Below are positions 1 to 24,391 of a stretch of 36,462 nt of DNA, one piece after another (position 1 is the stretch's first letter; each line of letters opens with the position of its first letter). A program made the position numbers and the translations under genes. The notes under the pieces are model-generated. The model saw nothing but the letters and a program-made list of their open reading frames with translations. It was not told the origin of the DNA and did not search any database. The DNA is from Chloroflexota bacterium (GTDB taxonomy: Bacteria; Chloroflexota; Dehalococcoidia; SZUA-161; SpSt-899): assembly GCA_013203045.1 (NCBI GenBank), contig JABMQN010000018.1, forward strand, positions 1 to 36,462, read 5' to 3'.

Positions 1-156
1 CTCCCGTTTTTCATCTTGATCTTCTTGGGACTCTGGATCTCAACCTTCTTTCGGCATTTCATGCAATATGCAGTCATAACAATACCTCCCTTTGAACAAA
101 GGCTATTTACTTACAAGACGAGTGGCAACGTTCAGAAGTTCCTGATGGGCTTATGA
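1..156 (+). CDS. C-terminal fragment of a membrane protein (truncated by window edge)
   Basis: Frame 1 is open from base 1 to TGA at 154-156: LPFFILIFLGLWISTFFRHFMQYAVITIPPFEQRLFTYKTSGNVQKFLMGL*. It contains one strongly hydrophobic segment. Too short to assign a family. Confidence 0.45.
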   Translation, partial: LPFFILIFLGLWISTFFRHFMQYAVITIPPFEQRLFTYKTSGNVQKFLMGL

Positions 157-370
157 CAGATGGCGGAAGGATGATACTCAGATCGTAGGACGTACCAGGA
201 TGGCTATTGGGGCGAGTTCGGGCTCCTCAGATAGGTTTCCACCAGCTAAGAGAGGGATATCCGTTCACAGGTGGCCTGGCACTTGACAGAAACTCCAAGG
301 AGGCGGGTTTCGATCCCCTTGCTTCGTTTGGTCATTAATCCTTGTTATTTACGGTTGGGACAATTCCCCC

Positions 371-387
371 TTAGGGCTCTGCCCTAA
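371..387. repeat. Small perfect inverted repeat (TTAGGGC-tct-GCCCTAA)
   Basis: 7-bp perfect stem with a 3-nt loop, read directly in the non-coding region 157-647. Confidence 0.5.
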
Positions 388-647
388 AACCCGGGCGGTC
401 CCCACTAACTCCACCCACGGGCTCAGGACGACAACCCGATTCTCCCTTCCGTTTTCTTTTTGGTGCTTCATTATTCACCCACTCTTATAAACTCACGATG
501 ATCTTATAGGATCGAATCAGCTTCGCACGTACAATTAATTTAATTGCATTCTGCAGGGACAGGGGTTCGTGCCAGGGGTGAGGGGCTATTCGTAGCTACG
601 AACCCGTTTAATGTTACTTTTAGGTTAAATTGTAACGTTTATTTCAG

Positions 648-1520
648 ATGGATGGGCATTTAAATACGAAGTTATTGGGTGTAGGATCCACTAAAGGTAC
701 CCACTTCGCTGTTACTACCTTGTTGGAAGCGATTGCTCCAAACTCAATTCAAACGGGAAAGATTGGGGTAAGCCATGCGTATTCAATCCTTCTTCAGAAA
801 GGGAATCAGCAAGTAATCGTTGATGGTGGGCCCAGCTCCGGGAAGATGGTTGACCAACTGGGCGACAAGCTTCCTTTCTGGGACCGGAACATTGAACTGT
901 TGGTCCTTACTCATCCCGATGCTGATCACATCACTGGACTTGTAGAAGTAATGCAGCGTTACAAGGTGGAGAAAGTCCTGACCAGCGGACAGGAAACCGA
1001 TTCTGATATATACAGGGAATGGTGCAAGCTGATTGATGAGAAAGGGATCGAGCTTATCATTGCTGAAGTCGGGCAGGAGATCATCATGAAGGATGGGATA
1101 CAACTCACAGTTCTTCATCCTCAGGAGACTCCGGTTGAGGGGGCTACCACGGATTTGAATAACAATTCAGTGGTGTTGCAGCTTGAGTATGGGAATTTCA
1201 GCCTTCTTTTAACTGGCGATATTGGAGAGGAAGCAGAGGAGCGCCTTGTGAATGGGAATACAAGATTGAAAAGCACGGTTCTTAAGGTTGCACATCACGG
1301 CTCGAATTCCTCAACTACACCGGAGTTTTTGACTGGTGTTGATCCCCTGTTTGCGGCAATTTCTGCAGGGGCAGATAACAAGTTTGGTCATCCGACAAAT
1401 GAAGTGATTGACAGGATCGAAAAGGTAGTCGTTGAGGATGGGCTCTACGTGACATCAGAAGATGGTGCGATCGAATTCATCACCAATGGGGAAAAGCTGT
1501 GGGTGCAAACCCGGAGATAA
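648..1520 (+). CDS. Stand-alone ComEC/Rec2-type metallo-beta-lactamase-fold hydrolase
   Basis: 290 aa with metal-site motifs THPDADH, LLTGD and AHHGS, and ComEC-like DGGPS...LPFWDR...LVLTHPDADHITGLVEVMQRY. No competence transmembrane domain in the ORF; an in-frame TAA lies just upstream of the ATG. Confidence 0.85.
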   Translation: MDGHLNTKLLGVGSTKGTHFAVTTLLEAIAPNSIQTGKIGVSHAYSILLQKGNQQVIVDGGPSSGKMVDQLGDKLPFWDRNIELLVLTHPDADHITGLVEVMQRYKVEKVLTSGQETDSDIYREWCKLIDEKGIELIIAEVGQEIIMKDGIQLTVLHPQETPVEGATTDLNNNSVVLQLEYGNFSLLLTGDIGEEAEERLVNGNTRLKSTVLKVAHHGSNSSTTPEFLTGVDPLFAAISAGADNKFGHPTNEVIDRIEKVVVEDGLYVTSEDGAIEFITNGEKLWVQTRR

Positions 1521-1529
1521 TACGAGTGT

Positions 1530-2669
1530 CTACAACAGGCGCATTATATTATGAAGATAGGCCGGTGTCCTTTTTTGTACGAGCATTGTAGCACCCGTAG
1601 GTGGCATAACCTGCAGATTGAAAACGCTGCTATTTTTCAGGTGTTCAGCGTTGGAATCAATAAAGGGATCATCATCATCGGTACCGTTCGAATAGGAGAC
1701 CCCGTTGAAATCGTGCAACCATATTGTAACAGTAGCTTTCTCAGAATTCTCCAGCAGGTAGTCATCAGTCCCGGTTCCATATCCACCGGCAAATTCCACA
1801 GTCCAGGCACAATCGTCAATGTATGTATTTCCGTCATTATAGGCAACCATGGTTACATTCCTGCCGAGGTCGGAGCCTGTTCCGAACCTGACCTCATCCA
1901 GGTGAATATCAACAGCTCCCGGATCTGAGGTGGCTATGATGGCGACGGAATTGATGGCACCGAGTGTGCTTGCACCGGGATTGTTAAATGCAACAACACC
2001 CTCTGTCCAGACGTTTCCTACCAGCAATGGTATGTCAAAAGTCTCAACTGAAGATGCCCCATTTGTACCTGAGCAAACGGCCAATTGAATGGTTCCTGCC
2101 ACCTGATCAGCGCTTGACTTAACCCAAACGTTCAATTGCTTGGGCCATGTCAGATCTACGGATGCTGCTCCCACGTTATAGTAAGCCAGTGTTCCTGATG
2201 TGAATGCGTCGGCGACAGTGAACTTGTTACTGGCTGGCGTTTCTTTGTAATCGGCCCCGTCGGTTGCTGCCGTAACGTCTGAACCGGAGGCTGTCCATGC
2301 GGTATCACAATCGCTGATCACCGGTGATACCAGTGCTCCGTTGGAGTCAATGCGGTAGAACGGCGTCAGGTCAATAGCCCCTCCGGCTGCAGCCTTGCCC
2401 AGGACTAATTGCAGTCTCGTTACACACTCATCTCCACTGGCAGTTCCTTTATATGCAATTGCGTTCCCAACAAGTTTGATTGTTGATTCGGCTTCTTCGA
2501 TGCCGGAATGTACTACTTCTTCGGTTTTCTGCGAGGAGAAGAGGCCTGCAGATAAAATCGTGTAAGCAAATACTGATGCCACCACGATAAACGCGATCAG
2601 TATAATGGCCGTTTCCAGGCCGGTTATACCCGTCTGATCTTGCTTTATGCGATATACAGTTTTAGTCAT
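1530..2669 (-). CDS. Archaellin/type IV pilin-like protein (class III signal peptide) with a large internal insertion
   Basis: N-terminus ...KQDQTG|ITGLETAIILIAFIVVASVFAYTILSAGLFSSQK is archaellin-like, with Glu at +5 after the predicted cleavage. The C-terminal NSSVFNLQVMPPTGATMLVQKRTPAYL is archaellin-like. Residues ~109-263 look like an inserted beta-rich jelly-roll. Confidence 0.8.
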   Translation of the reverse strand: MTKTVYRIKQDQTGITGLETAIILIAFIVVASVFAYTILSAGLFSSQKTEEVVHSGIEEAESTIKLVGNAIAYKGTASGDECVTRLQLVLGKAAAGGAIDLTPFYRIDSNGALVSPVISDCDTAWTASGSDVTAATDGADYKETPASNKFTVADAFTSGTLAYYNVGAASVDLTWPKQLNVWVKSSADQVAGTIQLAVCSGTNGASSVETFDIPLLVGNVWTEGVVAFNNPGASTLGAINSVAIIATSDPGAVDIHLDEVRFGTGSDLGRNVTMVAYNDGNTYIDDCAWTVEFAGGYGTGTDDYLLENSEKATVTIWLHDFNGVSYSNGTDDDDPFIDSNAEHLKNSSVFNLQVMPPTGATMLVQKRTPAYLHNIMRLL

Positions 2670-2725
2670 TTACAGTCCCTCGCGCTCAATCCTTAATATT
2701 GGAGAGCAATCTGGGCTTGTTTGTT

Positions 2726-3286
2726 CTATTGGAGATTCATCACCGGCGCTAATTCTTCCGGTGTAGTCCTTTTAATGGTCACGTTTTCTCCATCAGGAGT
2801 CGTGATCTTGATAGTGAAGGTGGTGTCAGCACTTGGACCAGAGTCAAGAGATTCACCAAGCAGAGCGGTGATGTGGAATGTTTCACCGATTTCCAACATG
2901 TCATCACCGTCGCCGTAGACATATTCCTTGGATTTCCACGGAATATTAGTTATCTCCCCGTCTTCATCGACATAGGATATTTCAACTACATTATTAGGAG
3001 GAGACGTGAAATTTAGGGGCACCGCGTCTCCCGGGATTGCCACAGTAAACATGACCTCGTTCACATTCGTGTTGGTAGGGTTACATTTAACGAAGACAGT
3101 TCCTCTCAGTTCCAGAGCGTTACTGTTATCTGTACCGTATACCGTGACACTACTGTCATCTGAGGATAGACTTGAATAGGCAAGCAGTCCTGCTACAGCC
3201 AGAGCTGCAATTGTAATGCCCGCCACTGAGATTCTGCTAATACCGCCTTGATGCTTGTGTACTTTTCGTAGCAGATTCATTACCAT
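2726..3286 (-). CDS. Second archaellin/pilin-like protein
   Basis: KHQGGISRISVAGITIAALAVAGLLAYSSL hydrophobic N-terminus. Archaellin-like VVEISYVDEDGEITN...DDMLEIGETFHITALL...FTIKITTPDGENVTIKRTTPEE. The ORF call extends to 3403, but AAGGAGT lies 9 nt upstream of an ATG at 3286, making that the likely start. Confidence 0.7.
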   Translation of the reverse strand: MVMNLLRKVHKHQGGISRISVAGITIAALAVAGLLAYSSLSSDDSSVTVYGTDNSNALELRGTVFVKCNPTNTNVNEVMFTVAIPGDAVPLNFTSPPNNVVEISYVDEDGEITNIPWKSKEYVYGDGDDMLEIGETFHITALLGESLDSGPSADTTFTIKITTPDGENVTIKRTTPEELAPVMNLQ

Positions 3287-3531
3287 TCGGCCTTTACTCC
3301 TTTCCTCAGAAGTGATCCTTATAACAACAACAGAGTTGCCCATTGAAATCGGGTTTATATAGATTTTACAAAAGAAGGGGGGGCTCGGATACCGTGCCGG
3401 CACTCATTTTGATTTGGGGGAATGCCCTCAGAGGTATGGGGGAAACTGTAAACGACGAAGCTCCGGTAGACTTCATTTTTAAATGACAGTTTGGGACAGG
3501 AGTACTGTTTGGAAGTGCCTATGAAATAACA

Positions 3532-3565
3532 AGCCAGAAGCATATTTTAGAATATGCTTCTGGCT
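3532..3565. terminator. Perfect 15-bp stem hairpin downstream of the SDR gene
   Basis: AGCCAGAAGCATATT-TTAG-AATATGCTTCTGGCT, located just past the 3' end of the minus-strand CDS ending at 3598. Confidence 0.65.
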
Positions 3566-3597
3566 CAGATTGAAATTTCTCTCTGAACTAAAGTCTG

Positions 3598-4512
3598 TTA
3601 GAATACGATTGCGGGCATCCCCAGATCTCCGAGCGTGCGGATCTGATCATGCAGTTCGCCGACAGTCCATTTTCTCTCGATATCGATCTTTTTCGCGACT
3701 TGCCATGATGTGAATAATTCAAGATTGCCACCCCGGATCGAGAAGATGTGCCCGGTGATGTCTTGAGCCTGGTCGCTTGCAAGGTAGGCAACCAATGGAG
3801 AAATGTTTTCTGGGGCCATTCCATCGAACTGGTCCTCGGGCACCTCAGCGAACATCCCATACTTGTCCGTCTGAACCGTCATCCTCGTTCTGGCCATAGG
3901 GCACACAGCATTACTGGTAATTCCGTACTTTTCCATCTCACGGGCCCAAACTGCCGTTAATACCGCAGTGCCGCCCTTAGCTGACGAATAATTGGGCTGT
4001 CCCGGGCTTCCTATGATCGCTGCATGAGAGATGGTATTGATAATACGCCCGTTGATCTGGTTTCCTGCCTTGGCCTGCTCTCTCCAGTAAGTGATGGCCC
4101 ATTTCCCGACGTTGAACGTTCCCTTCAAGTGAACCGCAATTACGAGGTCCCATTCCTCTTCTGCCATATTGAACGTCATTTTGTCCCTGAGGATACCTGC
4201 GTTATTTACCACGATATCCAGCCTGCCAAACTTGGCGACGGCATCGTCGATCATCTGTTTGGTCCCTTGGAAATCAGCGACACTTGCATAACTGGCGATG
4301 GCTTCACCACCTGCATCGGCAATTTCCTTAACAACGTTATCAGCGGGACCGGCAGAAGCGTTTCCCGAGCCATCCCATTCGGTGCCGAGGTCATTTATTA
4401 CCAGCTTGGCACCTTCTTCAGCCAATGCCAGCGCATGGCTTCTACCAAGTCCGGCTCCGGCACCTGTGACTATTGCTACCTTACCATCCAGAATTCCCAT
4501 TGTTTCTTTCAT
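3598..4512 (-). CDS. SDR-family oxidoreductase (MFE/HSD17B4-like 3-hydroxyacyl-CoA dehydrogenase type)
   Basis: TGAGAGLGRSHA nucleotide-binding motif, NNAGI, and NYSSAKGG (YxxxK). Confidence 0.85.
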   Translation of the reverse strand: MKETMGILDGKVAIVTGAGAGLGRSHALALAEEGAKLVINDLGTEWDGSGNASAGPADNVVKEIADAGGEAIASYASVADFQGTKQMIDDAVAKFGRLDIVVNNAGILRDKMTFNMAEEEWDLVIAVHLKGTFNVGKWAITYWREQAKAGNQINGRIINTISHAAIIGSPGQPNYSSAKGGTAVLTAVWAREMEKYGITSNAVCPMARTRMTVQTDKYGMFAEVPEDQFDGMAPENISPLVAYLASDQAQDITGHIFSIRGGNLELFTSWQVAKKIDIERKWTVGELHDQIRTLGDLGMPAIVF

Positions 4513-5003
4513 ACCTCCTGATTATGTTTGATACTATTTATGTATTTATCAATCTCAGTCGAATCACAATCTGTGCATTGGGGGACAACTTCTATCATGT
4601 TTTCATATATTTCAGTTGGTGCCAGTTACCCAGCGATATTGAGATTGGGATGCCCGGAAATCAGCAATTGGGGTCGGCACTGGTTGCACAATAATAATGC
4701 GATCTTCGTTCCAAGTGGTAACAATTTTACACTAGGAGTGAATAAAGAGTCAATATTATGCGCATAAATTCGTCCAAAACTGTAAATGATGGCCGGGGAA
4801 ACCTGACAGGAAAAATAAAGGGGCATCATCATGGTACCACAAGGATATTTAATAGGGGGAACCTGATAGGATACACTTGGTAAAGAGAGTAAGATGGACT
4901 AACTTACAGATTGCTGATGGAGTCTCGATGATGGGTGAAGTGGCATGGTTGAGGAGTCTTTTGTGATCTTCAAATGAGTCCAGAGGTGATAAGGAGGCGA
5001 ATA

Positions 5004-6275
5004 GTGAGAGCTTTAGGCCAAAAGGGAATTATGATTCTGGGAGTTCTGTTACTGGTGCCGATGCTAATGATGGCATGTGGTGGTAGTAGCGATGATAATG
5101 GTGATCTTACTTTGCCACCTGATGGGACAGAGACTCCTCCATTAACAAAGATCACCATCGGCAATCTCACAGATAAAACTGGAGTAGCATCAAATGCTCT
5201 CAGTGTTATAGACAAGGCACTGGAGGACATGGTTGAGTATGCCAATGAACAGGCCATGATCCCTGGCGTTGAGTTGGATATTGAAATCTATGATGGACAA
5301 TGGGACCCCTCCAAGGACATACCTGGCTACGAATGGTTAAGGGAGAAAGGGGCAGATTTGATCTGGACCCCTGTACCACCAGCGGTTGAAACACTTCAGA
5401 CCAAAGTAAATGATGACCAGTTTGTGTTATTTGCGGCTACGGCTAATATTGACTTGAAGGAACTGGCAGGCGGATATGAGTTCAGCTTGGGTATCACACC
5501 TGAATATGAAGCCTACACGCTACTCAAGTGGATCGTCGAAAACGATCCCGATTTTCCCCAAGACAGACCGGCCAGGATTGGCGGAGCGTCGTGGCTTGAT
5601 GGCTACAGCGCCATTTGGTTCGCAGCAGCAGAGAATTATGCTGAAGTTCACCCGGATCAGTTTGAGTGGGTTGAGGGATATCTGAACGAGTTCTCGTTTA
5701 TCTGGGATGTTGAAATCGAAGGGCTTAAGGATTGCGACTATGTCTTCGTGCCCACTCCAATGCACAAGTTTGTGGAGGATTACCGTCGTGCCGGATACAC
5801 GCAGGCAAAATTCGTCGGCTCTGATGTTCCAGCTGCTTTTCTTGGGATGATAGATCAGGCCGAGCTTTGGGATGAGATTGATGGCATGCTGTTCACCAGA
5901 TCATCTCAATGGTATAACGAAGAAGGGTTGATAATTGATTTAACGAACAAACTCCTGAATGAGGAACATCCGAGCAGCGCCGAAGATATCCGTCGGATGG
6001 GTTCGGGATATCTTTCGGGTCAACAGATATATATGATGATAGAGATTATAAAGAATGCAGTCGAAACAGTGGGGCCAGAGAATTTCAATTCGGAAGCTCT
6101 ATTCGATGCTGCAACATCGTTTTCGTTCACACTAGATGGTGTAGAAAACTTTGCCAGTTTTGACGAGACTAAGCGCTATGCCCAGAATTACTATGGTATA
6201 TACGAAGCACGTGCAGATGGGGAAAACCTGTTTAGAGCTGACCCTGAATGGCATGAGCAGATATTTACTCCATAG
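5004..6275 (+). CDS. ABC-type branched-chain amino-acid-like solute-binding lipoprotein
   Basis: Lipobox LMMAC; KITIGNLTDKTG...VELDIEIYDGQWDPSKDIPGYEWL. The ORF is called from 4974, but AAGGAGG precedes an in-frame GTG at 5004 that gives a compact lipoprotein signal peptide. Confidence 0.85.
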   Translation: MRALGQKGIMILGVLLLVPMLMMACGGSSDDNGDLTLPPDGTETPPLTKITIGNLTDKTGVASNALSVIDKALEDMVEYANEQAMIPGVELDIEIYDGQWDPSKDIPGYEWLREKGADLIWTPVPPAVETLQTKVNDDQFVLFAATANIDLKELAGGYEFSLGITPEYEAYTLLKWIVENDPDFPQDRPARIGGASWLDGYSAIWFAAAENYAEVHPDQFEWVEGYLNEFSFIWDVEIEGLKDCDYVFVPTPMHKFVEDYRRAGYTQAKFVGSDVPAAFLGMIDQAELWDEIDGMLFTRSSQWYNEEGLIIDLTNKLLNEEHPSSAEDIRRMGSGYLSGQQIYMMIEIIKNAVETVGPENFNSEALFDAATSFSFTLDGVENFASFDETKRYAQNYYGIYEARADGENLFRADPEWHEQIFTP

Positions 6276-6371
6276 TCACGAGCCTCACACTGGATAGCTC
6301 GTTCTTTACTGTTGCTATGTTGTCACATCCATTCGACTACTCACTCGCCATTTCGCATCTGGTGGTCACTG

Positions 6372-7613
6372 CTATCTCTTGAGACGTCTCACAGATAGAT
6401 GAACTAGCAACACGGTAGCTAGCAGTAATGCTAATCCTCCGCAGATCCATCCGGCTCTAGACCATTTAGAGTTCGTCTCATTGGGAGAAGATGACTGGCT
6501 GGCCTCAGATCCGACGAGGTCAGTGTTCCTCAGATCTAAGTTCGGATCGTTTGGATTTAGAGGCTGTATCGGTTCGGTGGTTGGGAACGGATCAAGTGTT
6601 GGCGAGATCGTTGTTGGCATTGGAGTTACTTTAGATGTAGTTCCGGGCGTCGTTTCGGCAGTAGGAGTAGTCATTGGTGTGGAAGGACTCACCAAGGCAA
6701 ACCTGTGCAAATGTGAGATCGAAAAGGTAATCGTGTTCAATTCCGGATTCAACACGCTGTTAACAAATTCCCATTCCCCGTTTGATTCATTAAAGATGGC
6801 AATAGCTAGATTGGACTCATCAATACTCTGCAATAACATATCATCCGAATAGGACAAGCACACATCTATTCCGGGCATAATGAACGACCCTTTTTGCCAC
6901 CAAGCGTAGACTGTAATTACGTCATAGTTGTCCGGAGGAGATAGAGATATAAGTGTTGGCGATAGTGTAATTGAACTCAAAGGGTTCATTGATGAATCTA
7001 GAATCTGTGCTCCGACTGGAATTTGGATGACCAAATCTTTGTTGACAGTACTGGCATATACATCTTCCATTAATGTCCCATTAGGTTGGATGAGCCATGT
7101 TGTTATCTTTCCATCAAGGTCTAGCATCAGACGTGGAGAAGCCCATCCCGTAATATCGTCTGATGTAGCGAATGATGCACAATTGGAAAGACCAGACCAG
7201 TTCGGAATTTCGTCTGATGTTTTAAGTGCGAAAAATCCCCCAGTATCTGGTATAGTATCTGTGATTACCATTGTTTCGGAAGTGCCTGCTGGTTGAGGTA
7301 TAGGGATGTTGCTTACTTGATTTGCATTATTCCAATCAGTTTCAGTGGTAATTGGTTGTGAAGAGTATCGTATATCGTATTGAGTAGCTATTCCCCGATC
7401 ATCATCATCACCAGGAGCTGTCCATGTTAAGGTTAATGATTCTTCCGATGGATTGATCACCATTAGATCGGTCACGGAATCTGGAGGTACTGTATCTTCG
7501 ATGATAAAATTTCCATTCACCGTTTGACTTGTAGCTGGAGCAATGTGGGGCCATACCGTCAGAAGTAAAACAGTTAGCCAAAGCATAGTAGTTCGAAATA
7601 CCGTTTTGTTCAT
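6372..7613 (-). CDS. Exported protein with FnIII-like domain, Thr/Pro-rich stalk and C-terminal TM anchor
   Basis: N-terminal signal peptide; PPDSVTDLMVINPSEESLTLTWTAPGDDDDRG (FnIII-like); STPMTTPTAETTPGTTSKVTPMPTT linker; WICGGLALLLATVLLVHLSVRRLKR anchor. Confidence 0.8.
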   Translation of the reverse strand: MNKTVFRTTMLWLTVLLLTVWPHIAPATSQTVNGNFIIEDTVPPDSVTDLMVINPSEESLTLTWTAPGDDDDRGIATQYDIRYSSQPITTETDWNNANQVSNIPIPQPAGTSETMVITDTIPDTGGFFALKTSDEIPNWSGLSNCASFATSDDITGWASPRLMLDLDGKITTWLIQPNGTLMEDVYASTVNKDLVIQIPVGAQILDSSMNPLSSITLSPTLISLSPPDNYDVITVYAWWQKGSFIMPGIDVCLSYSDDMLLQSIDESNLAIAIFNESNGEWEFVNSVLNPELNTITFSISHLHRFALVSPSTPMTTPTAETTPGTTSKVTPMPTTISPTLDPFPTTEPIQPLNPNDPNLDLRNTDLVGSEASQSSSPNETNSKWSRAGWICGGLALLLATVLLVHLSVRRLKR

Positions 7614-7673
7614 TTACATTGCCTGACGTTTGAATTCAAGATTAGATTTGAAAACCTATTGTTTATATAAGAA

Positions 7674-7705
7674 AGAGCGGGGTGAAACATTTCATGCCCC
7701 GCTCT
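7674..7705. terminator. Hairpin downstream of the 335-aa module protein
   Basis: AGAGCGGGG TGAAA-ca-TTTCA tg CCCCGCTCT: 14 paired positions with a 2-nt bulge, between the CDS ending at 7739 and the CDS starting at 7613. Confidence 0.6.
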
Positions 7706-7738
7706 GACGGATATTACTCTTTGGAAAACCGTGTACCT

Positions 7739-8746
7739 TTATGAACCGTTAATAATTTGATAGTTGATTGTTCCCTGATATTCTTCAGGGATAATACCTG
7801 TGCTACCCAACCAGAGCCACATAGTATTGTTTGCTTGAGTATCACCAGATTCGCTGGTTTGAGTACCGCTCTCATCAATCGAGGTATATCCGGCACTTAG
7901 AACTTGAACGGAATCGGCTTGTGTAGCATCATCATCTGCGGTTAGAGAAAACTCGGCGGAACCTGGGCTTGTGCCTGATGTGTTTAATGCGATGGTTCCA
8001 CTACTGGTCTGACCGACCCAGCTTGCATCCGATTTGACCTGTTCATCATAAGCTCCATTTGCAATATACGTAGCGCTAACTGCTCCCGAAGGTGATCCAG
8101 TACATCCTAATACAACTGATCCGAAGCTAGTTGTACCTGAAAGAGTAGATATCTCTCCGTACCAGTCCACCTCTCTATCTTCCTGATAATTATCACCTGT
8201 AGTAGTCCCATCATCGGCTACAGCGTAAATATGCCACTCTCCTGCACCCGGACTCTCGGTAGTCACTTTACCTGGTATAAAGTTAAATTCAAATGTTCCA
8301 CTGGAGCCGGTGAGTGAAGGTTGGGTACAGCTGCCGCTTACCACAGACCACGTAGTGCTGGCGTTGGGATCCATGCTCCAACTTCCACTGTTTGCCCAGT
8401 TTAGGATGGCACAGTTTTGAGTGTTACCTGATGCGGGTCTACTTCCAGTGTTGTATGTTCCGTCAGCGTCGTAATAAAGGTAGACTTTCACAGTGCTGAG
8501 GTCATTGAGGGAATTGTTATCTGTAACAGCTACTTTTACGTTGTATTGTACCTGTGGGGTCATCGATGAAGATGCGGCGGCACTTGTACCAGTACTCCAT
8601 AGTGCAACGCTACTCACTGAAGGCGCAGCATTGCTCACTGTAAAAGTTCCTGTTGATGAACCTTCGACAGCAGCCAGAATTATACTTGGCGTGGCGATTA
8701 TCAACATCATCACTAACGTTACTGCTATTGACTTCATTGAAAACAT
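7739..8746 (-). CDS. Exported protein consisting mainly of the shared C-terminal module
   Basis: Signal peptide followed by ~290 aa module (SVALWSTG...EEYQGTINYQIINGS*) shared with three neighbouring proteins. Confidence 0.8.
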   Translation of the reverse strand: MFSMKSIAVTLVMMLIIATPSIILAAVEGSSTGTFTVSNAAPSVSSVALWSTGTSAAASSSMTPQVQYNVKVAVTDNNSLNDLSTVKVYLYYDADGTYNTGSRPASGNTQNCAILNWANSGSWSMDPNASTTWSVVSGSCTQPSLTGSSGTFEFNFIPGKVTTESPGAGEWHIYAVADDGTTTGDNYQEDREVDWYGEISTLSGTTSFGSVVLGCTGSPSGAVSATYIANGAYDEQVKSDASWVGQTSSGTIALNTSGTSPGSAEFSLTADDDATQADSVQVLSAGYTSIDESGTQTSESGDTQANNTMWLWLGSTGIIPEEYQGTINYQIINGS

Positions 8747-8997
8747 TGTTCTATGTTCCTATCTTGAATAATGCCTCTATCACAACATCCTCACCGCCAC
8801 AACTATGAACAATAGGTAGAATATTCCTTCTAGAATAAACGTATCATAAATAGGGTTTGTATTCGACGTGGAAATCCCTACTTTGTCATGGGTGTAAACC
8901 CGATGAATACCAATCAATACTGAGACGTCTTGAAAAGGCATATTTAAACCTAGGGTCTATGAGGAATTCCCGTAGATTAGGAGATTTGTGATGAGGC

Positions 8998-9030
8998 AGC
9001 CTAATAAATAACATGGTTATTTATTAGGCT
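8998..9030. terminator. Perfect 15-bp stem A+T-rich hairpin downstream of the 401-aa protein gene
   Basis: AGCCTAATAAATAAC-atg-GTTATTTATTAGGCT, read directly. Confidence 0.65.
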
Positions 9031-9060
9031 ATGTACATGCTTGATATTTTAAATTCACAT

Positions 9061-10266
9061 TTACAGTGATTTGCTTATTCGATACCGTTTTCTTTTGATG
9101 GATCGCCTTTTGTTCAAAAATACTAGTGTTGAAATAGCGACGAGAACAAGAATTCCGATCACTATCCCGATGATGAGCGGGGTATTACTGCTACCCTTTT
9201 CTTCATCCGCTTCGTCATCTTCGATAACGACGATACCCTCCACGTCAATGGACCCAATCGTACTGTACGTGTAGGGTTCGCCACCCAGATTTAACTGCAT
9301 TTGAAAACTGTACCGTCCATTAAGCCAACCATCCGGCGGGATATAATTATATGATTGCTCTATAGTGCCTATTTCCAGTATACTCATAGTTCCTATCGAT
9401 ATTTCCTCGATTAGTACTTCATCGTGATTAACCAGAAGGAGCATTTCAGCATCGTTCATTGGTTTGTAAAGGTTCTCGATTACGTATATTAACTTAGTGA
9501 ATGCAAGTTGTCCGCTGGTACTGTGGTAGTGTGGCACAACTCCAAAATTAAGAAAGTACACGGTTTCAATTACCAGATTTACCGTTTTCTCTTCACCATT
9601 AGCCACGTTAAAACTCTCTTCGGCCAGTTTTTCATCTGCGACGTAAGCGTGGGCAATGAAGCGCCCTGGCGAAACCGTTGTTTCCAATATTCCAGTCTCT
9701 GAATAATCAAACTCCGACTCGGCGCCATCAGCGGCTATTTTCATTAACCTGATAACGGCGGGGATAGGTTCACCTGATGGGCCGACAGATTTTACTGTAA
9801 CGAAAGCAGACTCGCCAGTTATTATTACGGTGGCGGTCTGTCCTGCGGCTCCCATGATCTGGATTCCCCCCTCACTCTCCGAGTAGGATTCAGCGGTAAC
9901 TCGTATCTCGTGTTCTCCCGCAGGCGCGTCTTCGGAAGCCTCCAATGTTATAAGTACTTTCTGCTGTCCACTAGGCGCAATAGCAAAATCATCGTGGGAG
10001 AGAATAACGCTTACACCGCGTGGGGCTTCAGTGACCATTCGAACATTGAGTTCAGAATCACCATTATTGAATACAACTACATAGATGCTTGGTCCGCTAA
10101 TACTGGCGCCCTGGGGAAGTTCAAAAGGTTGACGGTAGAAGCTGCCTGATATGGCAATACCACCGTCTGCATTTGCCGGTATCGACCCAAACAGGAATGA
10201 TGACAGTACCAGCATTAGAATTGAAAGCAATGGTATGGTCGATTTTCTACATCGATAAAATTTCAT
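9061..10266 (-). CDS. Exported protein with NEW3-like/beta domains and C-terminal TM anchor
   Basis: Signal peptide; VVVFNNGDSELNVRMVTEAPRGVSVILSHDDFAIAPSGQQKVLITLEASEDAPAGEHEIRVTAES (NEW3/CARDB-like); TPLIIGIVIGILVLVAISTLVFLNKRRSIKRKR C-terminal anchor. Confidence 0.8.
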   Translation of the reverse strand: MKFYRCRKSTIPLLSILMLVLSSFLFGSIPANADGGIAISGSFYRQPFELPQGASISGPSIYVVVFNNGDSELNVRMVTEAPRGVSVILSHDDFAIAPSGQQKVLITLEASEDAPAGEHEIRVTAESYSESEGGIQIMGAAGQTATVIITGESAFVTVKSVGPSGEPIPAVIRLMKIAADGAESEFDYSETGILETTVSPGRFIAHAYVADEKLAEESFNVANGEEKTVNLVIETVYFLNFGVVPHYHSTSGQLAFTKLIYVIENLYKPMNDAEMLLLVNHDEVLIEEISIGTMSILEIGTIEQSYNYIPPDGWLNGRYSFQMQLNLGGEPYTYSTIGSIDVEGIVVIEDDEADEEKGSSNTPLIIGIVIGILVLVAISTLVFLNKRRSIKRKRYRISKSL

Positions 10267-10277
10267 TTTCTGCTCCT

Positions 10278-13046
10278 TTATGACCCATCGGCAATCTTGA
10301 GGTAGACTGAACCCTGGTATTCCTCATCCGGGATATCAGCGCTACCAAGCCAGAGCCACAGGTTATTGTTAGCCTGTGCATCACCAGATTCAGTTGTTTG
10401 TGTTCCAGTATCATCTATTGTTGTATACGATGCGCTAAGCACTTGCACTGCATCAGCCAGAGTATCGTCATCATCGGCTTGGAGTGCGAATTGAGCATTC
10501 CCTGGATTCGTACCTGAAGCGTACAAAGAAATTGTTCCACTGCTCGTCTGTCCAACCCAGTTCGCATCTGATTTTACTTGTTCAACATAAGCTCCATTGG
10601 AAATATAGGTAACGCTAAATGCAGTAGAAGGCGATCCGCTCGTTCCCAGTGATACAGTTCCAAAGCTGGTGTCAGTGATACTGGCAGTTTCTCCATACCA
10701 GTTCATATCCCGGTTTGCCGAATAGTTGCTAGCAGTAGTAATGCCATCATCAGCTTCGGCAAAAGCGTGCCACTTGGCTGATCCGGCATTCTCCGTAGCT
10801 ACTTTGCCTGGCTTGAAGTGAAACTCAAAATTGCCGGTAGTACCAGTGAGAGAAGGTGCCGAGCAACTGCCGCTAACGACAGACCATGTAGTGCTAGAGC
10901 TGGGATCAATACTCCATGTAGGAGAGCCTCCGTTAGTCCACGTGAGTATAGCTGCTGTCTGCGTATTACCTGATCCTGGGACGTCTTCAGCAGCGTAGCT
11001 GCCATCGCTATCATAAAAGAGAGTCAACTCCACGTCGCTCAAATCATCAAGTGAGTTGTTATCTGTAACAGGCACTTTGGCGTTGTATTGCACCTGCGGG
11101 ATCATCGAGTTAGTTGATGCGATAGTCCCCGTAGTAGTCCAGATTAATGGTGCATCGACCGTGGGAGCTTCGTTTGCAGGGGTAAATGAAATTGTGGATG
11201 TATCTATCCTTTCAGGGATGGTTTCAAAGGTAATGGAGAACTGGGGTCTTCTATATGTATAACCATTCTCGGTGCTCCCGAAATTGATGGCTGTGTAACC
11301 TATTCCTTCTTGGTCAGTGATCATGATGAATCCATATCGGTGACCGGCATTGTCATTTTGATATTGGAGAACATCACGGGCTAATTGATCCCCGAATGTC
11401 CACGTATGGTTTCCCCCCACCACCGGGATGCTGGTTACAGATGCCAGTGCGGTGTTACCTCTATCATTTGTACCATCGTAGTCACTTGATGCGTCACCGT
11501 CTACTCCAGACGTACTCTTACCCGCGCCGGCAGTGGTCCATGCAGACGTATTATAGCGCTCATAGTTCCAGCATACTTCTCCGGAAAAGGCTTGGTAATG
11601 AGCTCTCGTTCCTTCATTCACATCCCAGTCTCCTGAGGCAGTACCCCAATCATCCAAAACGGGATATATGCTCATGGTGTGGCTCACTCCTCCGCCCCCG
11701 CTGACCACGTAAAGATTGAGAGAGGCCCCGGTAATGGTGGCATCAGGATGGGCCTGGTCAAAGGCCGCCAAATCAAACTGGAAGAGAAGGCGATTGTGGT
11801 ATTGCCATGACGACCAGATAAAACTTCCGCATCTCAGCGTGTCATCGGTGCCAAAGTTGTAGTTTTCAAATACAAGTGATAAAAGAGAGGTATCCTGAAC
11901 TCCAGAATAGTTTTCTCCACCCCTGTTACCAAATGTAACCGTATCATTAAACAGCAGGCCAGAGTTGCCCAGATTGAAGGCCGTTGCAGGAACCATGTCG
12001 TAAAATTTGGTTTCTGTGAGTTCTTTGTCACGAATGACCGTTGCATCTGAGGAACTGGTACCCGAAAACAAATCTATTTTCGATCCGTAGAAGCCTGTGC
12101 TTGGCTGAATGGTATTACCGATGGGATATCTTTTTGTGGAACTGACTGTATTATAATATGGTTTGCTTTGTGTCATTCGCTCTGTTCCGAAGCTACAAAG
12201 CGCCATGCCGTTTGTTGCCGAATCCAAATACGCGCTATCCGTTTTCAATATAGTAGATAATCCGTTATCGTCGGATTCCGGCGAACCGAAACGCAGTGGA
12301 GCCGGTGTTATCCAGTGGATCGGCCTGCCTGTATCCGGGCTGTAAAAAACAATGTTCCCCCACGAAGTATCTAGGATTGCATTACTTGCTTCTACCGAAT
12401 AACTGTACCTGATACCCACCGCTAGATCCTCAATCTGATCACTTGGCAAGTTACTAAATATAGTATCTTTCAGCGTCTTAGGTATGTAGACTCTATCTAC
12501 CAATTGGTCGTTTATATATTTTACGGAATATGAGATTCCATCTGAGTCTGTCCATGATACTGTATCGCCGTTCACGGTTGGTGTCAGGCCAGAGAAATCG
12601 AATTCAAATATCAGCTCTTCCCATCCGGTTACATTGTTTCTCACCACGATGCCATCTATCTCGAATGATCTCTCGTCGCCCCAGTGCTCAAAAGTGAATG
12701 TGCCATTCTCCTTGATCCATAATCGATATACGCCAGAAGTCACTTCCCAGGTATATCCCGGTTTATCTGATGACCGGATGCTCACATCCACCAGATCATA
12801 TTCACCTTGTTCATTCTTGTAGTATTTGGGATAGGCATATACGTTCCATGTATTCCCAACTTGCTCGGAGAAGTGGTTAATTGGGATAGCTTCCTCTGAT
12901 TGTGTTCCGGATAAGATGATGTTCTTAAGATTGATGCATCCCGATGATGTGAAGAAAAATACTGCCAGCAGGAGAATAGTCGCGATAGTGCTCATAAGGA
13001 GGTCGCATATAGTTTTATTCGATTTATTCACAGTCAGTATTGTCAT
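10278..13046 (-). CDS. Large exported (possible lipo-)protein with DNRLRE-like domain and shared C-terminal module
   Basis: Signal peptide ending FFFTSSGC (lipobox-like); NRLLFQFDLAAFDQAHPDATITGASLNLYVVSGGG...DWDVNEGT is DNRLRE-like; C-terminal 291 aa is the shared module. Confidence 0.8.
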   Translation of the reverse strand: MTILTVNKSNKTICDLLMSTIATILLLAVFFFTSSGCINLKNIILSGTQSEEAIPINHFSEQVGNTWNVYAYPKYYKNEQGEYDLVDVSIRSSDKPGYTWEVTSGVYRLWIKENGTFTFEHWGDERSFEIDGIVVRNNVTGWEELIFEFDFSGLTPTVNGDTVSWTDSDGISYSVKYINDQLVDRVYIPKTLKDTIFSNLPSDQIEDLAVGIRYSYSVEASNAILDTSWGNIVFYSPDTGRPIHWITPAPLRFGSPESDDNGLSTILKTDSAYLDSATNGMALCSFGTERMTQSKPYYNTVSSTKRYPIGNTIQPSTGFYGSKIDLFSGTSSSDATVIRDKELTETKFYDMVPATAFNLGNSGLLFNDTVTFGNRGGENYSGVQDTSLLSLVFENYNFGTDDTLRCGSFIWSSWQYHNRLLFQFDLAAFDQAHPDATITGASLNLYVVSGGGGVSHTMSIYPVLDDWGTASGDWDVNEGTRAHYQAFSGEVCWNYERYNTSAWTTAGAGKSTSGVDGDASSDYDGTNDRGNTALASVTSIPVVGGNHTWTFGDQLARDVLQYQNDNAGHRYGFIMITDQEGIGYTAINFGSTENGYTYRRPQFSITFETIPERIDTSTISFTPANEAPTVDAPLIWTTTGTIASTNSMIPQVQYNAKVPVTDNNSLDDLSDVELTLFYDSDGSYAAEDVPGSGNTQTAAILTWTNGGSPTWSIDPSSSTTWSVVSGSCSAPSLTGTTGNFEFHFKPGKVATENAGSAKWHAFAEADDGITTASNYSANRDMNWYGETASITDTSFGTVSLGTSGSPSTAFSVTYISNGAYVEQVKSDANWVGQTSSGTISLYASGTNPGNAQFALQADDDDTLADAVQVLSASYTTIDDTGTQTTESGDAQANNNLWLWLGSADIPDEEYQGSVYLKIADGS

Positions 13047-13061
13047 TGCATTTCACTTCAA

Positions 13062-14132
13062 TTATAAGCCGTTTATAATTCGATAATATAGGGTTCCTTG
13101 ATATTCCTCACTTATGATACCGGATTCATATAACCAGAGCCAGAGATGGTTGTTAGCTTGTGTGATGCCCGCTTCCCCGGTCTGGGTACCCGAATTGTTG
13201 ATCGTTGTATAATAATCACTTTGCACCTGCACTGAGTCAGCCACGGTGTCATCATCATCTGCCTTGAGTGCAAATTGGGATGCACCTGGACTGGTACCGG
13301 AGGTGTGCAAAGTCAATGTTGCAGCGCTGTCCTGACCGGTCATTGTTGCATCTGATCTTACCTGCTCATCATAGGGACCATTGGAAATGTAAGTAGCGCT
13401 TACTGCCCCGGAAACAGACCCACTGCATCCCAGCGGCACGGTACCGAAACTGGTAGTGGCGGTCACTCCTGAGACCTCTCCATACCAGTTCATCTCACGG
13501 TCTTCCTGGTAATTGTCGCCGGTCCCAGCGGCACCGTCCGTAGCTATGGCATATATGTGCCATTCGTCATTACCGTTATTCTCTGTAGCTACTTTGCCTG
13601 GTTTAAAATGGAATTCAAATGTACCGGTGGAGCTGGTGAGTGACGGGGCGGAACAACTGCCACTGACAACAGCCCAGGTAGTGCTGGCACTGGGATCAAT
13701 CGTAAATGAACCTCCATTGGTCCAGGTGAGAATGGCACACGATTGTGTGTTACCAGTTCCGGGTCGGTCTCCCTCATCATACGTGCCGTCAGCGTCATAG
13801 TAAATAGTCACCTTCAATGTATTGAGATCGTTGAAAGTATTGTTGTCTGTCGCGGCTACCTTCACATTGTATTGGGTTTGTGGGCTCATTAAAGTGGCCT
13901 GTGCTGCACCGGTCCCTGTGCTCCAAAGCTCCACGCTGGTTATTGAAGGATCTTCGTTGGGTATAGTGAATGATCCGGTTGAAGGTATTTCTGTTGCTGC
14001 AAGGACAATCCCAGGCATTGTTACGAGCAGTAACACGATTGCCACTGCTAAAGATGAAATCCTATTTGATTCCAAATTTGGCCCTCTTTTCCTCATACCT
14101 GAAGTAAAAAGTCTGGCCAAACATGCATTCAT
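13062..14132 (-). CDS. Exported protein consisting mainly of the shared C-terminal module
   Basis: Signal peptide VAIVLLLVTMPGIVLAA then module SVELWSTG...EEYQGTLYYRIINGL*. Start overlaps the upstream gene by 4 nt (ATGA); a downstream start at MRKRGP is also possible. Confidence 0.8.
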   Translation of the reverse strand: MNACLARLFTSGMRKRGPNLESNRISSLAVAIVLLLVTMPGIVLAATEIPSTGSFTIPNEDPSITSVELWSTGTGAAQATLMSPQTQYNVKVAATDNNTFNDLNTLKVTIYYDADGTYDEGDRPGTGNTQSCAILTWTNGGSFTIDPSASTTWAVVSGSCSAPSLTSSTGTFEFHFKPGKVATENNGNDEWHIYAIATDGAAGTGDNYQEDREMNWYGEVSGVTATTSFGTVPLGCSGSVSGAVSATYISNGPYDEQVRSDATMTGQDSAATLTLHTSGTSPGASQFALKADDDDTVADSVQVQSDYYTTINNSGTQTGEAGITQANNHLWLWLYESGIISEEYQGTLYYRIINGL

Positions 14133-17100
14133 GAACCGTCACCAATTCCGAAATAGACGCTGCCTTGGAATTCATCTGCCGGAATGCCAGAATCGGTAGT
14201 AAGCCATAAATAGTTGTTAGCCTGGGTAACACCAGCCTCCGCAGTCTGTGTACCTGATGTGTCTATTGACGTGTAAGATGCGCTTGCAACCGATACTGCG
14301 TCAGCCACAGTGTTATCATCATCTGCCTTTAGAGAGAACTCGGTACCCAAGGAGAGAGCGGTGCTGGTGAGCTGTCCGATCCAACTTGCATCTGACTTGA
14401 CTTGTTCATCATATGCTCCGTTCGAAATATAGGTGGCGCTCACTGCACTGGTAGATACGATGTCAGTATCTCCCAACGATACGCTACCAAAGCCAAAGCT
14501 AGAGGTGATACTATTGATTTCTCCATACCAGTTCATATCCAAGTTGTCCTGGTAGTTATTGGCTGTTAGGGTGCCGGAATTCGCCGCCCCGTAAATGTGC
14601 CACTTGGCTGAGCCTGTAGTCTCAGAGGCTACCTTCCCCGGAGTGAAGTAAAACTGAAACGTGCCCTCAGTGCTGCTCAAGGAAGGTGCAGAGCAACTAC
14701 CGCTATTAATTGACCAGGTAGTGCTGGTATCAGGATTAATGGACCAGACAGGCGATCCACCGTTGGTCCAGGCAAGTATAGCCGCCGTTTGAGTGTTGCC
14801 CGAGCCCGGGACATCTTCAACGGCATAACTGCCGTCGCTATCATAGAAGAGGGTAGCCTTTACTGTGCTTAAGTCATTGAGAGTGCCGTCGTTTTTGGTG
14901 ATTCTGACCCTAGTGTTATATTCAACTTGCGGTGTTATCGATGTTGCTTCCGACGGCGTTGCCCCGGTGTCCCACAACACCACTGAATTCAATACGAAAT
15001 CGAGAGGCGCTTGCCACGATAATAGCCAGTCCTTGAGTGTTGGTGTATCGCCGCCGTCTGAGGTCAGCTCTGCGTATGCCTTTACAGGATTAATTGAACC
15101 GGCACATTTTGAAATGTCGTAACCTATTGCGGCTTCGGTGCCGCTGATGGTGCAGAGCACGCTATCATCGCTGGCATCTAGTATTTTGTACTCGATACCG
15201 GTACCTGCAGGCGTGCCGTGATTGACAGAAAAGGTATCCCATGAAATGGTGCCGCTGATAGTGATATCAGTTGAAGTAATCGTGCCGGGCGACCCGTACG
15301 CAGTCAGAGATGCGATGCCGTTGCCCACAGTTATATTGGAGGTGGAATCCACTTTATCCCAGGCAAACTTGCCGTCACTCCAGTCATTCCAGGTAATGTT
15401 CCAATCGTGCAGGGTCGGCGTAACGAGGGTATCAGTGGTAGAAAGGTTGGCTGCCAGCCTGACTTCAGAGTAAGTCCCGGTATTCAAACTCATCAGATCT
15501 ACCGGGGAGCTATCGAAGCCCGCAGCGTTCCCGGAAAGATCACCATCCGGGATCAGTTGCCATGATCCGCCGCTATAATACTCAAGCCGGATCTTGATAT
15601 CGGTATTTGTTGGTTCCGTATCACTCCAGCCAAGTGAGTCCCAGTTACTCAGGCTTGAGGGCGCGATACCGACAGATGAGACGGTACCAGATGAACTATA
15701 AGTGTTGAATGTTTTCGTAAAGACCAGATCATCGAACCACACCTTCTTGACAGTACCCCCCAGAAGGGCACCAAGTCTTAGTTTAAAGCTGGAGTTGCCA
15801 TACGTGTCGAGATCTATGGCGGCATTGCGGCGGAGCCAAGCCCAATCTGAACCATTGTTGTCCAGGTAATCTATAACGGTCCAGGATGAACCATTATAGT
15901 ACTCAAGACGGAAATCATAAGTTGCAGTATAAAGTTTATAGAACCAGAAATCCAGATTGGCCGTTAAAGCATTGGAAAGATCAATTGTATCCGACGTGAG
16001 GTAATTCCAGGCATATACGCCATTTTTCACCCACATACTGTGATTGCCACTGCGACTTATACCTGATTTGATGGACCATGGGGATGTACCATCCCAGAGG
16101 GAATGGGTGAAGCTGTCGCTGAAAGCGGTCTCACCATCTACAGTCAGAACCACGTCATCCACCCACGCAGAATGCCCGATAGCGTTCGTGCAATCGATCC
16201 TGATTCTAAAATTGGAAATGCCATAGGTACCAAGGTCTATCGCCACATCATTGTAGTGGAGCCAGGTCCAATCGCCACCATTGTTATCAAGCTCGTCGAT
16301 GATATCATAAGTTGAGCCGTTGAAAAAATAAAGGGTGAAACCGGTGGCTGCCGTGTTATACTTGCGGAACCAGAAATCAAGACTGGCCGATGTCGCGCTC
16401 GAAAGATCGATATCATCCGATGTCACGACTCCCCCCCCTCCAAATTGAGACCTCAAACACGCGTAGTCGTCGTGATATGCAGTGCCCCCGACATCCAAAG
16501 AGGTAAGACCATTTCCATCCCAATTGCTCAGGTTGAAGCTGTCAGAGTAAGTGGTCTCGACTAAATTTGAAACGAGGGTGGTATCCCCTCCACTGGTTGC
16601 TGTGTTTGTGGAGCTGGTGGATATCGAAACAGTGCTGCTGAATGAGTCACCCCAGGATGTTGTTGATTCCTCTGCACCCAGTTCAAACGTTGGCTCATCT
16701 TCAATGAATTTTCTAGCTCTGGCCCATGAAACATAAATATCCTGTATATCGTAAGATCCTGCGCCAGAGCCAAGAAAAAAACCAAGATACATATATACTG
16801 ATTCGTTAAAATAATCTAAAGAAACCTTCTCAACATAATTACTAAAAAGACGAATATTTGTTCCATCAAAACCTGTTCCAAGTACGTAATCGACTTGTGC
16901 TGTTCTAGTAAATACTGGTACTCCTGATCCGAGGTTATAGCTTGCAACTGTACCATCACCAGCAAAATAGTTTACAGATGATCCTGCTGGATAGTCGACC
17001 ATGTAACATACATTGGCATCAGCTCCTGCGTTGCCAGCTTGCAAATTTTTTACATCTACTGTCATCATGCCAGAATACCAAGTTCCCGTACTCGCATACC

Positions 17101-17734
17101 ACTTGACCATTGATTCAAAGATCATCTCATCACTCTGGGCTACCGTATTTTTAGTATAAATACTTCCTTTATTTATTCTCACTCCTCCATCTGCAACAGT
17201 TACATTTGCTGGACTTGTTGCCGTCCATACATCTGTATCTAATGATGCTCCATCAAAATCATCAAAGAAAGTAAAAACACTTGTTCCGCTCGACACAGCG
17301 TTAGCGGTGGGATTCCCATAATACATATGAAAAGTTGATGTTCCACTGGATGGAAGTGATGGGTATTTCACCCAGACGCTTGATGTACCGGAGTTATTCC
17401 AGGTCTCAATCCAATAGCTGCAGGCAGTTCCGCTGGAGGTTGTGAACCTGAGGTCATCGCCATTAGATCCTTGAACATTGTTGTAATTAAAGGTATCTGG
17501 AGTAAGTGTAATTTTCACCGGGTAGTCGGTCAGCGCGGAGCCGGAGTTTTCCGTTAGCTCGATGACCCTTCGGTAATCCCAGTCGGTATCGTCCCAGGTT
17601 GGAGGAATTTCCGCTTGAGCAGGGGGTGGGAGCATTTGTGGAAGTAGTAATACTGCCAATAGAAGGAACAAAGTGCCCACAGAAACGAGTTTGCTGATAT
17701 CTCTTCTGAAAAGCGACGTGTTCTGATCATTCAT
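14129..17734 (-). CDS. 1201-aa exported protein: DUF2341-like N-terminus, LamG-like region, tandem MAM-like repeats, shared C-terminal module
   Basis: Signal peptide; WDDTDWDYRRVIELTENSGSALTDYPVKITL...HMYYGNP (DUF2341-like); two tandem ~138-aa repeats (DSFNLSNWDG.. / DSFTHSLWDG..); C-terminal 285 aa is the shared module. Confidence 0.85.
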   Translation of the reverse strand: MNDQNTSLFRRDISKLVSVGTLFLLLAVLLLPQMLPPPAQAEIPPTWDDTDWDYRRVIELTENSGSALTDYPVKITLTPDTFNYNNVQGSNGDDLRFTTSSGTACSYWIETWNNSGTSSVWVKYPSLPSSGTSTFHMYYGNPTANAVSSGTSVFTFFDDFDGASLDTDVWTATSPANVTVADGGVRINKGSIYTKNTVAQSDEMIFESMVKWYASTGTWYSGMMTVDVKNLQAGNAGADANVCYMVDYPAGSSVNYFAGDGTVASYNLGSGVPVFTRTAQVDYVLGTGFDGTNIRLFSNYVEKVSLDYFNESVYMYLGFFLGSGAGSYDIQDIYVSWARARKFIEDEPTFELGAEESTTSWGDSFSSTVSISTSSTNTATSGGDTTLVSNLVETTYSDSFNLSNWDGNGLTSLDVGGTAYHDDYACLRSQFGGGGVVTSDDIDLSSATSASLDFWFRKYNTAATGFTLYFFNGSTYDIIDELDNNGGDWTWLHYNDVAIDLGTYGISNFRIRIDCTNAIGHSAWVDDVVLTVDGETAFSDSFTHSLWDGTSPWSIKSGISRSGNHSMWVKNGVYAWNYLTSDTIDLSNALTANLDFWFYKLYTATYDFRLEYYNGSSWTVIDYLDNNGSDWAWLRRNAAIDLDTYGNSSFKLRLGALLGGTVKKVWFDDLVFTKTFNTYSSSGTVSSVGIAPSSLSNWDSLGWSDTEPTNTDIKIRLEYYSGGSWQLIPDGDLSGNAAGFDSSPVDLMSLNTGTYSEVRLAANLSTTDTLVTPTLHDWNITWNDWSDGKFAWDKVDSTSNITVGNGIASLTAYGSPGTITSTDITISGTISWDTFSVNHGTPAGTGIEYKILDASDDSVLCTISGTEAAIGYDISKCAGSINPVKAYAELTSDGGDTPTLKDWLLSWQAPLDFVLNSVVLWDTGATPSEATSITPQVEYNTRVRITKNDGTLNDLSTVKATLFYDSDGSYAVEDVPGSGNTQTAAILAWTNGGSPVWSINPDTSTTWSINSGSCSAPSLSSTEGTFQFYFTPGKVASETTGSAKWHIYGAANSGTLTANNYQDNLDMNWYGEINSITSSFGFGSVSLGDTDIVSTSAVSATYISNGAYDEQVKSDASWIGQLTSTALSLGTEFSLKADDDNTVADAVSVASASYTSIDTSGTQTAEAGVTQANNYLWLTTDSGIPADEFQGSVYFGIGDGS

Positions 17735-18119
17735 ACTAGGGCTGCTCCTGGTGAAACATGTTTACCAATGGGTAGTACAGAGGCATTGAGACGACAATTG
17801 AAGGATAAGGGTGAGGGGGAAAAGCAGGATGAATTTTGGGAATTTTGGGGTGCATGGCTGGGAGCGCAAAACGCGTGGGAGAGGTACCTCCCCCCCTGTT
17901 TCATTACCCTCTACCCCCATCGGGGCTATTGGACCAAAAAAACTTCACTCACTATCCCCCACTAAGTGCTTTGTGTTACAGTATCGACTTGCTCACGATA
18001 TAACATATCGAGCTACAAAAAGACATACTTTGTTAGTGAATTTAGCATACATATTGTGAGTCGTCAACGGTGGGCCATTTGCTCAGGTTTCCCATTCCGT
18101 CTGAATTGACACATATTAT

Positions 18120-18878
18120 CTATTGTGCCACCCATCCACCGTCTACGGATAGAGCGTGACCGGTAACAAAAGATGCTTCGTCAGAACATAACCATACTGC
18201 AGCCTCGGCGATTTCCATTGGCTCAGCCATCCGACCTATTGGGTGCATGCCAATTATCAGGTTTTCAAGTTCTTCATTGCCTCCGGTTAAAGCGTCTACC
18301 AGAGGCGTACGGGTCATACCTGGGCATACAGCGTTCACTCGAATTCCGGCTGCAGCATACTCTAGTGCTGCCGATTTTGTAATTCCAACAACACCGTGCT
18401 TCGCGGCGATGTAGGCCGTGTTGTACTCACCACCGATTAGGCCTCCGACACTTGAAGTGTTAACGATGGCCCCCTTTCCCTGATTGAGCATCACCGGAAT
18501 CTCGTATTTCAGGCAAAGCCAGACACCTTTCAGGTTTATATTGATGACACGATCCCACTCTTCCTCGGTACAGTCGGGGAGTGTGGACACTACTTGCTCA
18601 ACTCCCGCATTATTAAATGCGATGTCCAATCGGCCATGGGTTTTAATGGTTTCGTCAATAAGCGTTTTGACCTGATCTGCTTTTGAGACATCGGTCTTCA
18701 CGAACATGGCTTCGCCGCCAGTTTCTTTGATCATCGTTACCGTCTCATCTCCCCCCTCTTCCCCGACGTCCCCAATGACTACTTTCGCTCCTTCACGGGC
18801 AAATACGATGGCAGCCGCTCTCCCGATCCCGGAACTACCTCCGGTAACCAGAGCAACTTTGCCTTCCAATCCTTTCAT
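18120..18878 (-). CDS. SDR-family oxidoreductase
   Basis: VTGGSSGIGRA, NNAGVE, YIAAKHGVVG (YxxxK), GHALSVDGGWVAQ. Confidence 0.9.
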   Translation of the reverse strand: MKGLEGKVALVTGGSSGIGRAAAIVFAREGAKVVIGDVGEEGGDETVTMIKETGGEAMFVKTDVSKADQVKTLIDETIKTHGRLDIAFNNAGVEQVVSTLPDCTEEEWDRVININLKGVWLCLKYEIPVMLNQGKGAIVNTSSVGGLIGGEYNTAYIAAKHGVVGITKSAALEYAAAGIRVNAVCPGMTRTPLVDALTGGNEELENLIIGMHPIGRMAEPMEIAEAAVWLCSDEASFVTGHALSVDGGWVAQ

Positions 18879-18907
18879 TCGTTTGTCCCCTTTATGTGCT
18901 TTGGAGT

Positions 18908-18926
18908 GCGGCAGTCCAACTGCCGC
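18908..18926. repeat. Small inverted repeat GCGGCAGT-cca-ACTGCCGC
   Basis: Perfect 8-bp stem, intergenic. A second hairpin ATCCCCCTT-tg-AAGGGGGAT lies at 18978-18997. Confidence 0.5.
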
Positions 18927-19040
18927 TTTCTGGATTGCATGAGTTATGTCATTGGGAAATTACTGCGGTATTTGCCAATCCCCCTTTGAAGGGGGATGTT
19001 ATCCTCTATTTCACTCCAGCCATGTCTATCCTGCCCTCCA

Positions 19041-19622: not shown

Positions 19623-19624
19623 TT

Positions 19625-21859: not shown

Positions 21860-21909
21860 TGGCACCTCCTTTGGTCCATTGAGAGAATTGAATACTGTTC
21901 CTCCGTAGC

Positions 21910-21950: not shown

Positions 21951-21951
21951 A

Positions 21952-24376: not shown

Positions 24377-24391
24377 TCGTGCTATTGAATA

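Follow-up and report, generated by a model that had tools for sequence, protein, structure and literature searches.

The genes at positions 6372-17734 of the window, the stretch of 36,462 nucleotides analysed here, form a conserved unit that can be separated from the neighbouring pilin genes with high confidence. Its small and large proteins share a domain in two parts, some 300 residues long, referred to below as the module. We propose, with a probability of about 0.5, that this module locus specifies a membrane-docked surface complex resembling the WxL/WxLIP systems but working without peptidoglycan. The products of the locus probably serve adhesion or form a surface coat.

The window is the whole of contig C214 of a draft genome of 3.97 Mb that is 92.6% complete. 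Eight exported or filament-type genes, all on the minus strand, are clustered at 1530-17734 according to ORF translations, Pfam and transmembrane (TM) prediction. This agrees with the preliminary description, as do its two archaellin-like genes (1530-2669 and 2726-3403), two proteins with C-terminal TM anchors (6372-7613 and 9061-10266) and two proteins made of a signal peptide and a module (7739-8746 and 13062-14132). Of the domains given there for two large module fusions, DUF2341 and a DNRLRE-type domain were recovered; LamG/MAM-like domains had no Pfam match in the locus proteins, and the part so described is the unassigned region of w11 between DUF2341 and the module. The SDR and substrate-binding protein (SBP) genes said to interrupt the cluster do lie there, the SBP gene on the plus strand. 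The features are as follows.

1530-2669, minus: w02, archaellin with an inserted domain, not part of the module locus (Pfam Arch_flagellin 8e-20, two stretches)
2726-3280, minus: w03, archaellin-like minor pilin, not part of the module locus (Arch_flagellin 3e-6, just under the cut-off)
3530-3567, minus: terminator-like hairpin of 17 pairs between the SDR gene and the pilin pair (sequence reading)
3598-4512, minus: SDR oxidoreductase, unrelated neighbour (translation)
4974-6275, plus: Peripla_BP_6 substrate-binding lipoprotein (SBP), unrelated neighbour (Pfam 2.4e-16)
6372-7613, minus: w06, fn3-like domain (Pfam fn3 0.00096), further region and C-terminal TM helix 385-411
7739-8746, minus: w07, small, signal peptide and module only (module alignment, TM prediction)
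8996-9030 (position approximate), no strand: inverted repeat AGCCTAATAAATAA-CCATG-TTATTTATTAGGCT between w08 and w07 (sequence reading)
9061-10266, minus: w08, proposed receptor/anchor with signal peptide, NEW3-like Ig domain, CarboxypepD_reg-like domain, third Ig-like domain and C-terminal TM helix
10278-13046, minus: w09, large fusion of an N-terminal region, a CBM96/DNRLRE-type domain and a C-terminal module (Pfam CBM96 4.7e-6, module alignment)
13062-14132, minus: w10, small, signal peptide and module only (hydrophobic N-terminus, no other TM)
14129-17734, minus: w11, large fusion of signal peptide, DUF2341, unassigned region and C-terminal module at about residues 890-1201 (Pfam DUF2341 3.4e-24, module alignment); first gene of a probable operon, overlapping w10 by 4 bp

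The gaps following w11 are tight (-4 bp to w10, 15 bp between w10 and w09, 11 bp between w09 and w08), whereas 314 bp separate w08 from w07 and 125 bp separate w07 from w06. These spacings, together with the inverted repeat after w08, indicate that w11 to w08 are probably one operon closed by the repeat, and that w07 and w06 probably lie outside this transcription unit. As w07 is found 3′ of w08 behind this repeat, not every module gene is inside the operon. Promoter-like sites in the window showed no excess over shuffled sequence. All products of the module locus are predicted to be secreted; the secreted module proteins in the window have no TM helix beyond the signal peptide, and their signal peptides are of the ordinary type, not class III.

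Conservation of the module locus

Profiles were searched against 393 genomes of the class, taken to be Dehalococcoidia of the Chloroflexota. A profile built from four modules matched nine genomes, and one built from 17 modules matched ten. A w08 profile detected full-length homologues in the same ten genomes, neither protein occurring without the other, and gave weak partial matches without a module in two further genomes (G208 and G340). In each of the ten, a module gene lies directly 5′ of the w08 homologue on the same strand, with gaps of 11-280 bp. The tenth genome, G392, was absent from both training alignments and carries a minimal form of the locus, a single module protein and w08, 16 bp apart. 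The chance of ten coinciding genomes in 393 would be about 5e-20 if they were independently placed, a value that kinship makes larger. A w06 homologue is found directly 3′ of w08 in three relatives, and we propose that w06 is a second, optional anchored component.

The synteny spans five families of the class. Small and large module proteins stand side by side in several families, and together with the Ig-like TM partner they form one cluster in the window and in G354, G380, G188 and G017 (the last with broken frames). The earlier proposal of a subunit-plus-adhesin type of locus, based on small module proteins beside large fusions, is supported by this synteny across the five families. The G017 module genes beside w08 are frameshifted (L036:9248-10952), by decay or assembly error.

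The module, its Ig-like partner and WxL clusters

The genome contains four copies of the module, in w07, w09, w10 and w11, and none elsewhere. The w07 module is 55-65% identical to the other three, and w10 is 65% identical to w07. Judged by sequence comparison the module is no described family, since its 17 members had no match in Pfam, and none was found in NCBIfam or PDB sequences. Its structure model is weak (pLDDT 46): the N-terminal half is predicted, with moderate confidence, to be an Ig-like sandwich and gives generic Ig matches only in fold searches, and the C-terminal half is unmodelled. Apart from two fusions within G380, the fusions have N-terminal parts that differ from genome to genome and show no relationship to one another, whereas the module is constant and C-terminal, as expected of an anchor. 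Fusion and stand-alone copies are intermixed on the module tree, where the fusion label needs at least four changes; the fusions are therefore not one clade.

The AlphaFold2 model of w08, likewise weak (pLDDT 67), is all-beta with a helix at 362-400. NEW3 was detected by Pfam in seven of nine w08 homologues, and outside the class weak matches of NEW3 length only were obtained, in three of 350 genomes of the phylum. In a fold search SlaB of Sulfolobus acidocaldarius ranked 6th and a solved WxLIP 10th; the solved WxLIP structures 9i1y and 9i25 were among the best matches, alongside many other Ig chains and with low TM-scores. In three genomes belonging to a single family, the proposed receptor continues beyond its TM helix in a long low-complexity tail (L037:1094-3517, L040:2845-4833 and L043:4238-6256), which is presumably cytoplasmic.

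The preliminary description knew of no system of this composition, but one has been described in the WxL/WxLIP (csc) clusters of Firmicutes, in Lactobacillales and Bacillales (PMC10599100, PMC1534035). These also combine a small protein of signal peptide and one domain, large proteins ending in the same domain, and an Ig-like protein with a C-terminal TM helix, everything being exported and clustered. Genuine WxL and WxLIP proteins encoded on plasmids served as yardsticks, an approximate WxL-like consensus serving only to find the records. The module is about twice as long as WxL and lacks its W-x-L pair: two such motifs were present in none of 17 modules, and 15 of the 17 had none at all. Pfam WxL did not match any of the 17 members, and hhalign of the module against the WxL profile gave probabilities of 0.1-1%. 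Identification of the module as a WxL domain was rejected on these grounds, motif pair and profile match both being absent. A literature search for WxL in Chloroflexi found nothing relevant.

The w08 profile aligned with WxLIP over 243 columns with a score of 47.6, whereas 100 block shuffles never exceeded 29.9 and reversal gave 22.7. The hhalign probability for this pair was 80%, with another Ig pair of the locus, w06 and w08, close behind at 65%; Ig-like folds match many proteins. Pfam WxLIP_PGBD was found in one of nine w08 homologues, at 0.067. Unlike WxLIP, w08 has a third domain, and the NQIDKxxxYFDLK motif, present in all five real WxLIP proteins, occurred in none of the nine homologues.

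Peptidoglycan binding is central to WxL. The module hosts differ from WxL/csc bacteria in lacking two peptidoglycan-synthesis families: PBP transpeptidase (PF00905) and FtsW/RodA (PF01098) were missing from all nine module genomes searched (G392 left out), and ten bacterial controls were positive. This agrees with the loss of peptidoglycan published for most orders of the class (PMC10284905). The host cells thus appear to make no peptidoglycan and to have no cell wall, and because both families are absent, matching the published loss, the module is unlikely to bind peptidoglycan. By analogy, the locus would most likely work like a WxL cluster without being a member of that group.

With fairly high confidence the anchor is w08, whose C-terminal helix would keep it in the cytoplasmic membrane with its domains presented outside. 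The module would be the shared docking part for this platform. Stand-alone module proteins would coat or seed it; at the C-terminal end of large proteins with DUF2341 or CBM96, the module would tie glycan-binding or adhesive domains to it, and these large fusions would be adhesins. A constant C-terminal domain is carried by exported proteins that are otherwise unrelated, and a single membrane-anchored Ig-like protein always accompanies it. Docking is the best explanation of this arrangement, from which we infer with moderate confidence that the module docks on w08. More tentatively, part of the class may have come to display adhesins after peptidoglycan loss by means of a new C-terminal domain docked on a membrane-anchored Ig-like receptor. 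Such a system would parallel WxL display without depending on a wall; it would have a protein family of its own, and unrelated adhesin domains would have been captured repeatedly. Little is known of how wall-less bacteria retain large proteins at the cell surface. The locus points to a proposed receptor and a proposed docking domain, which occur together in several families and whose binding would be simple to assay.

The pilin pair and alternative readings of the locus

Both w02 and w03 have an archaellin N-terminal domain with a class III signal (PF01917 and alignment), which in w03 is KHQGG-ISR by alignment. Translation of w03 probably starts at an ATG near 3280 and not at the GTG at 3403. 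An insert of about 130-160 amino acids follows the N-terminal half of w02 (window 1884-2357, by alignment). It matched no known family and is common to pilins in two archaellum operons, and the archaella of this lineage may have decorated subunits. The filament assembly machinery that had been sought is present on another contig, C253, as a complete archaellum operon with ArlJ, ArlI, ArlH, two ArlF/G-like proteins, an ArlCDE-like protein, four archaellins and two further pilins, the Arl genes (C253:10149-18805) being identified by reading translations. ArlCDE and ArlF/G homologues also occur in an archaellum operon of G017, in which an ArlF/G-like protein (L049:8714-9724) contains an insert similar to a part of w11 (26%, 7e-5). 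The window pair is a copy of the last two genes of the C253 operon (w02 46% identical to 18976-20106, w03 42% to 20225-20785), and w02 has a higher identity to a pilin of the G017 operon (54%) than to its own paralogue on C253. As Chloroflexota archaella have been described and are functional (PMC12488501), the pair at 1530-3280, of the same family, most plausibly consists of dispersed archaellins, either minor or decorated, that belong to the archaellum.

The preliminary description had joined pilins and module genes in one composite appendage. In such a structure an archaellin-like filament would carry the module proteins and the DUF2341 fusion would be the tip adhesin. The pilins are close by in the window, a complete motor exists on C253, and in archaeal type IV pilus loci large DUF2341 proteins have been proposed as tip adhesins (PMC4858521). 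The only DUF2341 of the genome is in w11, which is likewise large and exported; w11, however, ends in a module, and its locus is without a pilus motor. Conserved synteny, suggested earlier as a check, holds for the module genes with w08 but not for the pilins: none of nine relatives had an archaellin or pilin close to its module genes, the neighbourhood being read over a limited span in some of them, whose contigs are short (6.7-13 kb). Six of the ten module genomes have no archaellin, and in the three relatives with both, archaellin and module are on different contigs (archaellins occur in four of the ten). The opposite-strand SBP gene and the 17-pair hairpin divide the pilins from the module genes, and the module signal peptides are not of class III. 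The composite appendage was rejected on synteny and distribution and is most improbable; the supposed association of the local archaellin copies with the module locus was a false one.

An S-layer type of lattice, with module proteins as subunits, w08 as membrane stalk and fusions as decorated subunits, is unlikely, although several points favour it. SlaB holds SlaA in the Sulfolobus S-layer, and there too a secreted subunit is combined with a TM-anchored Ig-like stalk in cells without peptidoglycan, a likeness without sequence similarity shown. The rank of SlaB in the w08 fold search, the four module copies in one genome and the stand-alone module proteins of seven relatives fit this arrangement, and S-layers are known from the same class, in Tepidiforma and some Dehalococcoidaceae (PMC10284905). 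The module locus, in contrast, is patchy, and many module copies are fused to unrelated, adhesin-like domains; being present in 10 of 393 genomes only, it is not a general S-layer of the class. Capture of polysaccharides for carbon uptake, with modules holding carbohydrate-binding proteins, would follow the role in carbohydrate use proposed for csc clusters (PMC1534035), and both CBM96 in w09 and the adjoining SBP gene are consistent with it. We consider it quite unlikely, as family searches found no hydrolase domain in w09 or w11, the SBP gene is on the opposite strand, and fusions of other genomes have no recognisable CBM. It is very doubtful that w08 and the module are true WxL and WxLIP families diverged past sequence detection. 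The composition matches, w08 resembles WxLIP in profile and fold searches, and the module end, Y-x-G-T-I-x-Y-x-I, recalls Y-x-T-T-L-x-W-x-L of WxL; the missing W-x-L pair and NQIDK/YFDLK motif, the empty comparison of module and WxL profiles and the absence of the two peptidoglycan-synthesis families all argue against it.

The remainder of the window (18120-36260) was read as a catabolic cluster. It includes two tandem molybdopterin oxidoreductases with a 4Fe-4S protein, an HpaB-like protein, several SDRs, a ThDP enzyme, a second SBP and, at the right end, acetone-carboxylase-like genes. The G+C content is about 0.43-0.49 in the surface-gene half (1-18000) and 0.49-0.53 in the catabolic half (18000-36462). 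At the left edge, a protein of metallo-beta-lactamase fold is encoded on the plus strand at 648-1520 (Lactamase_B 2e-13).
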